Of a stretch of 42,751 nt of DNA, positions 11,938-13,467 are shown piece by piece. The first letter of the stretch is position 1. The number at the start of each line of letters is the position of its first letter. The notes under the pieces are model-generated. The model was given only the letters and a program-made list of their open reading frames with translations. It searched no databases and had not been told where the DNA came from. This DNA comes from Clostridia bacterium. GTDB lineage: Bacteria > Bacillota > Clostridia > Oscillospirales > JAAYXM01. The stretch is from the NCBI GenBank assembly GCA_017559855.1, contig JAFYQP010000016.1, positions 68,509 through 111,259 on the forward strand, in the 5' to 3' direction. A program made the translations under genes and the position numbers.

Positions 11938-12013
11938 GATCCACTAGCTCAGTCGGCAGAGCACCTGCCTTTTAAGCAGGGTGTCCGGAGTTCGAATCTC
12001 CGGTGGGTCACCA
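11938..12013 (+). tRNA. tRNA-Lys (TTT)
   Basis: The acceptor GATCCAC pairs with GTGGGTC, with one G-U pair. The anticodon arm is CCTGC-CTTTTAA-GCAGG, anticodon TTT. CCA is encoded. It follows tRNA-Gln by only 4 bases. Confidence 0.97.
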
Positions 12014-12055
12014 AAAATAGCACTTGCTTTCGCAGGTGCTATTTTTATTTTGTTT
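12014..12055 (+). terminator. Terminator of the tRNA cluster
   Basis: AAAATAGCACTTGC pairs with GCAGGTGCTATTTT (one G-U) around a TTTC loop and is followed by a T-rich run, a textbook intrinsic terminator. Confidence 0.92.
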
Positions 12056-12083
12056 TAACTGAAGCGAACATGCCCTTTTTTAA

Positions 12084-12112
12084 TTGACTTTTTAAAATTT
12101 GTCTGTTATGCT
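12084..12112 (+). promoter_or_regulatory. Promoter of small-RNA-like unit 1
   Basis: TTGACT, 17 bases, then TATGCT with a TGT extension. It is nearly identical to the promoter of unit 2, 111 bases downstream. Confidence 0.7.
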
Positions 12113-12119
12113 TAATATC

Positions 12120-12191
12120 AGAGTCAAGCGTGCCTTTCGCCACCGTTTCTTTGGAAATGGCGACACTGGCTGAAGCGTTTGGCTCTTTTTT
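12120..12191 (+). ncRNA. Candidate small RNA, copy 1
   Basis: About 72 nt, starting 7 bases after a sigma-A promoter and ending in a T run. AGAGTCAAGCG (12120-12130) pairs with CGTTTGGCTCT (12176-12186) to close the molecule and act as terminator stem. Inside, TCGCCA pairs with TGGCGA to make a second hairpin, leaving conserved single-stranded TGCCTTTC and ACACTGGCTGAAG segments. There is no ribosome site or ORF of note. I do not recognise the family; a regulatory RNA is the simplest reading. Confidence 0.6.
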
Positions 12192-12194
12192 AAA

Positions 12195-12223
12195 TTGACT
12201 TTTTCAAAATTGTCTGTTATGCT
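12195..12223 (+). promoter_or_regulatory. Promoter of small-RNA-like unit 2
   Basis: TTGACT, 17 bases, then TATGCT with a TGT extension, as in unit 1. It begins directly after the T run of unit 1. Confidence 0.7.
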
Positions 12224-12230
12224 TATTATT

Positions 12231-12304
12231 AGAGTCAAGCGTGCCTTTCGTGTCCATTCCTTCGGGTATGGATCCACTGGCTGAAGCGTTTGGCTCTTTT
12301 TTTT
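12231..12304 (+). ncRNA. Candidate small RNA, copy 2
   Basis: A paralogue of copy 1. The same closing stem AGAGTCAAGCG / CGTTTGGCTCT (12231-12241 with 12287-12297) is followed by eight T. The inner hairpin has a different sequence (GTGTCCAT opposite ATGGATCCAC) but the same place, which points to conserved structure. The flanking TGCCTTTCG and CACTGGCTGAAG segments are kept. Confidence 0.6.
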
Positions 12305-12325: not shown

Positions 12326-12357
12326 TAAAAAGAGGTAGGGATACTTCCCTACCTCTT
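12326..12357 (-). terminator. Terminator for the minus-strand gene at 12363
   Basis: AAGAGGTAGGG pairs with CCCTACCTCTT around a 6-nt loop. Read on the minus strand it is followed by TTTTTAG. Confidence 0.85.
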
Positions 12358-12362
12358 AATTA

Positions 12363-12935
12363 TTAATTTAAACTATATCCACCTTTTACCAAGACGGTTG
12401 AATTTGACTTAACCGAGAGGGTTACACTGTCTGCGGTGATATAAAGATGATTGTTTGCAACACTACCGCCTGAGGCAACTGCTCCACCGGTTGTTGCGTC
12501 AACAAGGTTTCCAGACTTGCAGGAGACTGTACCGCTTCTCACCAACACTTCACAGCCTTTGGCAAGCACCAGACTCTTCCCCTTTACAATATCTATTGTA
12601 TTAAAAGGGGCACTCTGCTTTATATCCGGTTGTGCTACCTGACTTGCAATTTGGTCAATCATTGATGAGGTTACGGTCGCCGTATTTCGGTCTATAAATT
12701 CATTGACCTTTTTATCCACACGTGCTTCGTAGTTTGAAATATTGGCATTTGTGGTTTTTGCGGTATTATCACTGACCTTTTTCGCTTGACTTAAAAGGTC
12801 GGGAGTAAATACGTCGGTTATGTAACTCAGGCTTACCAAAGGGTCGCTCTGCGTTCCATAATCCACCGCTATTGCAAAGATACCAATTGCCGCCGCTATA
12901 ACCATAACCGCAACTAAAACCGTTTTCATCTTCAT
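12363..12935 (-). CDS. Membrane-anchored or secreted protein of unknown function
   Basis: I do not recognise the 190-residue product. An N-terminal hydrophobic helix (VLVAVMVIAAAIGIFAIAV, about 5-23) after KMK acts as signal or anchor. A Thr/Asn/Lys-rich helical region (35-95) follows. The C-terminal 80 residues are beta-rich and Gly/Ser/Val-rich (GKSLVLAKGCEVLVRSGTVS). The start chosen, ATG at 12933-12935, has AGAGGGA 9 bases upstream; a longer reading frame overlaps the previous gene and lacks a ribosome site. It follows the MazF-type gene by 22 bases and ends in a strong terminator, so it is the last gene of the alr cluster. Confidence 0.7.
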   Translation of the reverse strand: MKMKTVLVAVMVIAAAIGIFAIAVDYGTQSDPLVSLSYITDVFTPDLLSQAKKVSDNTAKTTNANISNYEARVDKKVNEFIDRNTATVTSSMIDQIASQVAQPDIKQSAPFNTIDIVKGKSLVLAKGCEVLVRSGTVSCKSGNLVDATTGGAVASGGSVANNHLYITADSVTLSVKSNSTVLVKGGYSLN

Positions 12936-12957
12936 ATCAAAATTCCCTCTCTTAAGT

Positions 12958-13314
12958 TTATTCCGGGTCAAGACCGAAACTTACCGCAATAGCGTCATCC
13001 ACACGTTGCATAAGTCGGTCATCAAGGCGTCCCATCCGCTCTTTTAGTCTCTTTTTATCAATTGTTCGTATCTGTTCTAAAAGAATTACAGAATCCTTTG
13101 AAAGGCCAAAACTTCGAGCACCAAGTTCTATATGAGTCGGAAGTCTTGCCTTGTTTATTTGTGATGTGATTGCCGCTGCAATCACCGTGGGACTATGGCG
13201 GTTTCCAACATCGTTCTGGATAATAAGCACCGGGCGAATACCACCTTGCTCACTTCCTACGACGGGACTTAAGTCCGCATAGTATATATCCCCTCTTCTG
13301 ATTGTATGATCCAC
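12958..13314 (-). CDS. EndoA/MazF-type mRNA endoribonuclease
   Basis: MazF/EndoA dimers cut single-stranded mRNA, at UACAU in B. subtilis. The core [41 protein letters not shown] and [17 protein letters not shown] is very close to B. subtilis NdoA. The GTG at 13312-13314 is preferred: it gives 118 residues, the family length, and GGAG lies 10 bases upstream. The reading frame extends to an ATG at 13398, adding 28 basic residues of no known domain. alr lies upstream as in Bacillus, but the usual antitoxin gene (ndoAI) between them is missing. Confidence 0.9.
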
Positions 13315-13467
13315 GCATTTCACGCTCCGCAGAAAATATAGTCGCCGTTTTTTATCCGACAACTGTATTTTTCCCACAGCTTCGTGCTTTTTAGTCATAC
13401 CTTTAAAAATTTTTTCGTTATGACCTTTTCTCGGCTTAATTTATTCTATGCCGAAACATGCAAATTG

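Follow-up and report, generated by a model that had tools for sequence, protein, structure and literature searches.

Two tandem sibling small RNA genes predicted downstream of a tRNA cluster in a Clostridia genome

Introduction

Does the short tandem repeat that directly follows a tRNA cluster in a Clostridia bacterium encode a pair of small non-coding RNAs, and if so of what kind? The region concerned is positions 12084-12304 of the window, by which we mean the whole stretch of 42,751 nucleotides that was analysed (contig JAFYQP010000016.1), and a sequence-only reading had proposed that it holds two tandem small RNA (sRNA) genes of an unrecognised family, each with its own promoter and with conserved unpaired blocks that could bind targets. 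The answer that we favour, with about as much confidence as doubt, is that these are two predicted, lineage-restricted sibling sRNA genes that arose from duplication of a 111-bp unit made of a promoter and an RNA.

Results

The locus is a gap-free direct tandem duplication of 111 bp (12076-12186 and 12187-12297) in which the two units are 86% identical, with 16 differences. Each unit carries a sigma-70-like promoter, TTGACT-17 bp-TATGCT with an extended -10 TG, that matches the consensus at 9 of 12 positions; both are on the forward strand, at 12084-12112 in copy 1, where they were read from the sequence and by a promoter scan, and at 12195-12223 in copy 2, where the promoter scan also finds them. 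The proposed duplication, spanning 12076-12297, and both proposed promoters are thereby confirmed. Predicted small RNA 1 (12120-12191, forward strand, ~72 nt) would begin at a position placed by inference from the -10 element; its closing stem is formed by 12120-12134 and 12168-12186, and it includes an apical hairpin and a U-tract ending at 12191. Predicted small RNA 2 (12231-12303, forward strand, ~73 nt) has the same closing stem, a diverged apical hairpin and a U-tract ending at about 12304. Sibling sRNAs are at least two highly related small-RNA genes in one genome, which is what these two copies represent, and each of them carries a promoter-like sequence and terminator-like elements from which it could be transcribed independently.

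Each predicted transcript folds into a single hairpin, with a closing stem of 12 bp plus 3 bp followed by a T-run, and the folding z-scores are -4.0 for copy 1 and -5.1 for copy 2, none of 200 shuffles being equally good. The 12-bp outer stem is formed by AGAGUCAAGCGU and GCGUUUGGCUCU; inward of it, a UGAA bulge leads to a 3-bp stem of GCC with GGC, after which come a small internal loop and the apical hairpin, whose loop is closed by a C-G pair and reads UUYG in both copies (c-UUUG-g in copy 1, c-UUCG-g in copy 2). This fold leaves little of the supposedly unpaired blocks free, as the GCC of TGCCTTTC pairs with GGC within CACTGGCTGAAG and only about UUUC, CACU and UGAA remain accessible. The closing stem had also been proposed to double as the terminator: stem and T-run are indeed seen, although a simple scan with a loop limit of 8 nt did not flag them, and the stem followed by a U-run suggests a long-loop terminator.

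The pattern of divergence is the most informative point on the pair. All 11 differences within the RNAs fall within 24 consecutive nucleotides around the apical hairpin (12140-12163 in copy 1, 12251-12274 in copy 2, both on the forward strand, from the copy alignment and the folds), and the remaining 46 of 70 positions are identical, a clustering with a probability of ~3e-5 under random placement. Both the duplication and this clustering exceed chance. The claim that the central hairpin differs in sequence while keeping its pairing holds for its first half, the pairing being kept only in part. In the common register, four of the seven apical pairs are unchanged, one is changed on one side (G-U/A-U), one is a compensatory exchange (U-A/C-G) and the last does not form in copy 2; the minimum-energy fold of the copy 1 apical hairpin uses a different register. 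Because only two sequences are compared, and because half of the shuffles do equally well in keeping the apical pairing, this pairing provides no evidence of covariation.

Each unit also contains a 21-codon open frame, MLNIRVKRAFRHRFFGNGDTG in copy 1 (12108-12173) and MLIIRVKRAFRVHSFGYGSTG in copy 2 (12219-12284). Both frames are open and share the same stop, and the third-position changes within them are synonymous, as would suit a pair of tiny genes. However, the frames start with an ATG within the predicted -10 element, hence ahead of the transcript, neither shared frame is preceded by a Shine-Dalgarno sequence or other ribosome-binding site, and the differences are spread over the three codon positions as 3/5/5 (counted by hand from the copy alignment), while the stem at the RNA level accounts for the identical ends. 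Because of where the frames start, the missing ribosome-binding site and the spread of the differences, coding is unlikely; we judge the frames to be chance features of the sequence and give tiny genes very little credence.

A covariance model built from the two copies recovers just these two in their own genome, the sole genome sampled of its genus. No match to the model appears in the other eight family members sampled, and nothing convincing among 245 order-level, 391 class-level and 398 phylum-level genomes, and DNA searches of the relatives agree in finding no homologue. Two copies among ~1,000 genomes sampled from family to phylum do not make a conserved structured-RNA family, and the term "unrecognised family" was an overstatement, since no homologue beyond the two tandem paralogues appears in any genome searched by covariance model or DNA search. 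The absence of a named family is borne out: at the gathering score, Rfam 15 recognises only tRNAs within the window and leaves the RNA units unmatched, and a search of the RNA locus at E up to 10 yields nothing credible. In the data available, the RNA pair is lineage-restricted.

None of the weaker matches was convincing. With 31 bits, L068 is the best match in the class sample, and it is antisense within a jag/KhpB-like gene; the other weak covariance-model matches whose alignments were read are plain terminator hairpins, together with two AT-rich or poor alignments, and two weak matches in the phylum sample (L079 and L080) are 37 nt long. A pattern scan of 85,000 genomes gave 10 scattered matches in unrelated phyla, all without the closing stem, which were judged to be due to chance, as was the one exact 20-mer found in viral contigs, which lies within a phage structural gene with the rest of the RNA missing. 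The remaining patterns found nothing in viral contigs, and a distant blastn search against phages and plasmids returned short pieces only. A nearly identical stretch around TTGTCGAAAGGCATT, within long antisense frames, was observed on contigs C61 and C78 (L092 and L096, near position 1500 of each); it is possibly a repeated gene.

This restricted distribution is what would be expected if the locus were an intergenic segment with promoter and terminator that had been duplicated in this lineage under no selection and had no function, whether or not it is transcribed: the unit is missing from all relatives searched, folds like those of strong terminators often arise by chance, and several weak matches of the model are themselves plain terminator hairpins. 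Against such a neutral origin, the changes are not randomly placed, as described above, and the -35 element, the -10 element and the stem are intact in both copies. We regard a functionless duplication as a real alternative, which we consider distinctly less probable than sibling sRNA genes.

The genome contains a bona fide hfq gene (G000:C7:8158-8349, E 2e-30), and targets were sought in several ways. Exact complements of TGCCTTTCG occur in the genome no more often than does the reversed control and are not located at start sites, and complements of the conserved blocks show no enrichment genome-wide. GAAAGG, the complement of the CU-rich loop, is common in start regions, so that this loop could meet many mRNAs; CGAAAGG at first seems enriched in start regions, but no longer does so once sister Shine-Dalgarno-like 7-mers are used for comparison, and the 7-mer signal reflects likeness to the Shine-Dalgarno sequence. 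The suggestion that the conserved blocks bind targets is therefore unsupported by these counts. Antisense pairing with the neighbouring tRNAs gave no consistent signal relative to shuffles, the lowest value (block B with tRNA-Val, 2/100) being one among 28 comparisons.

These results leave room for an RNA that binds a protein, as a decoy or a scaffold, through its conserved stem, internal loop and UGAA bulge, in which case the second copy would raise dosage and the apical hairpin would be a free spacer under a stable tetraloop. A conserved paired and bulged core joined to a hairpin that varies freely and yet folds fits a structural spacer, and both the shortness of the free loops, too short for strong seeds, and the missing target enrichment are in its favour. 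On the other hand, there is no candidate protein, no match to the protein-binding RNA families of Rfam and no set of homologues that would define a binding site. Like the neutral duplication, it is a real alternative, and one to which we give the same minor share of belief.

Upstream of the RNA genes lie a corA-like gene and then six tRNA genes; the earlier placement of the RNAs after a tRNA cluster was correct, and this six-gene cluster has its own strong intrinsic terminator (12013-12046, forward strand, from the terminator scan), which separates it from the RNA genes. The tRNA order Gly-Arg-His-Gln-Lys is retained in most members of the family, whereas the sequence after it is not conserved, and in these members the covariance model finds no RNA behind the cluster. 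Downstream, and convergent to the RNA genes, are the genes for a 202-amino-acid (202-aa) protein, a MazF-family protein and alanine racemase; a hairpin that is a perfect 12-bp inverted repeat (12330-12357, from repeat and terminator scans) stands between the RNA genes and this alr-mazF-202aa operon.

The MazF-like protein (12958-13398, reverse strand; PF02452, E 2e-37) is encoded ~650 bp downstream of the RNAs, and alr and mazF have no mazE frame between them, an arrangement that could suggest a type III-like toxin-antitoxin pair with the RNAs as antitoxin. Synteny largely refutes this: the alr-mazF-202aa order is present in relatives of the family and of the order that do not have the RNAs, which argues against a functional tie between the RNAs and MazF. 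Furthermore, the RNAs are convergent to mazF and have their own promoters, whereas a type III antitoxin is a repeat RNA in the leader of the toxin gene and constantly linked to it, and the two copies here are not repeats within one leader transcript. Of all the explanations considered we find this one the hardest to credit.

The operon shows features of its own. A MazF/PemK-family gene follows alr, with the 202-aa gene next, in the window and at loci L049-L060, and MazF is 66-88% identical across family and order, as compared with ~27-47% for its alr and 202-aa neighbours. This MazF without an adjacent antitoxin is unusually conserved. The 202-aa protein (12363-12971, reverse strand) has no match in Pfam or NCBIfam; its relatives occur in each of the other eight family members sampled and in several genomes of the order, and its gene adjoins mazF in most of those checked.

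Discussion

Two tandem, independently promoted structured RNA genes remain the best reading of this sequence; of the original proposal, the target-binding role of the conserved blocks gained no support, and the notion of a family is too strong. In the scheme that we favour, duplication of the 111-bp promoter and RNA unit would have produced two sibling genes, each transcribed from its own sigma-A-type promoter into an RNA of ~72 nt that ends at the U-tract behind the closing stem. These RNAs would probably regulate mRNAs in trans by base pairing, in association with Hfq; the shared internal-loop segment (GCC)UUUC would give common targets, probably by being directed at Shine-Dalgarno sequences, and the diverged apical hairpin would either select copy-specific targets or serve as a structural spacer.

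The closest likeness is with OmrA and OmrB of E. coli, adjacent siblings with nearly identical ends, in which the divergent centre provides OmrA with a target of its own (PMC11162775). The pair described here similarly has conserved ends and a divergent middle in a genome that encodes Hfq, and by this analogy we infer base-pairing regulation with shared and copy-specific parts. However, the two pairs have no visible sequence relation (no Rfam match), and most OmrA/B targets pair with the conserved 5' end (PMC11162775, PMC4211561), whereas the 5' end is here sealed in the closing stem. The LhrC RNAs of Listeria are multicopy siblings in a Gram-positive bacterium whose CU-rich loops act on AG-rich Shine-Dalgarno regions (PMC8079631), and it is possible that the CU-rich loop of our predicted RNAs faces Shine-Dalgarno sequences in a comparable way. 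LhrC1-5, however, measure 105-121 nt and combine two stem-loops with UCCC motifs (PMC8079631), while the RNAs here are ~72 nt long, form one closed hairpin and have no Rfam match; UCCC, which characterizes loop A and the single-stranded linker of LhrC, is absent from the unpaired parts of both. The Streptococcus csRNAs and PrrF1-PrrF2 (PMC4211561) are likewise small tandem or multicopy sibling RNAs, with no sequence or Rfam relation to this pair.

Several observations weigh against regulatory sibling RNAs. No homologue is found in the family, order, class or phylum samples; an energy-based test on a 365-kb genome sample with 322 start regions gave no predicted target better than shuffled controls; the free loop segments are ~4 nt each, which is short for a seed; and, in contrast to typical sRNAs with a 5' seed, these RNAs have their predicted 5' end tied up in the closing stem. 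On a bolder view, the pair would belong to a larger class of rapidly evolving RNAs that keep promoter, closing stem and internal loop constant and exchange the apical hairpin to obtain copy-specific regulators, a class overlooked so far because it changes too quickly or occurs in genera that have not been sampled; we consider this improbable.

Two sibling sRNA genes would be a credible further case of something familiar, twin small RNAs, and not a new kind of biology, and the RNA pair gives no pointer to a new mechanism. If they are transcribed, they would be a clean case, in the one genome sampled of its genus, of duplicated sRNA genes with frozen ends and a diverged centre, and sibling pairs of such a form help to test how sibling sRNAs divide their targets.
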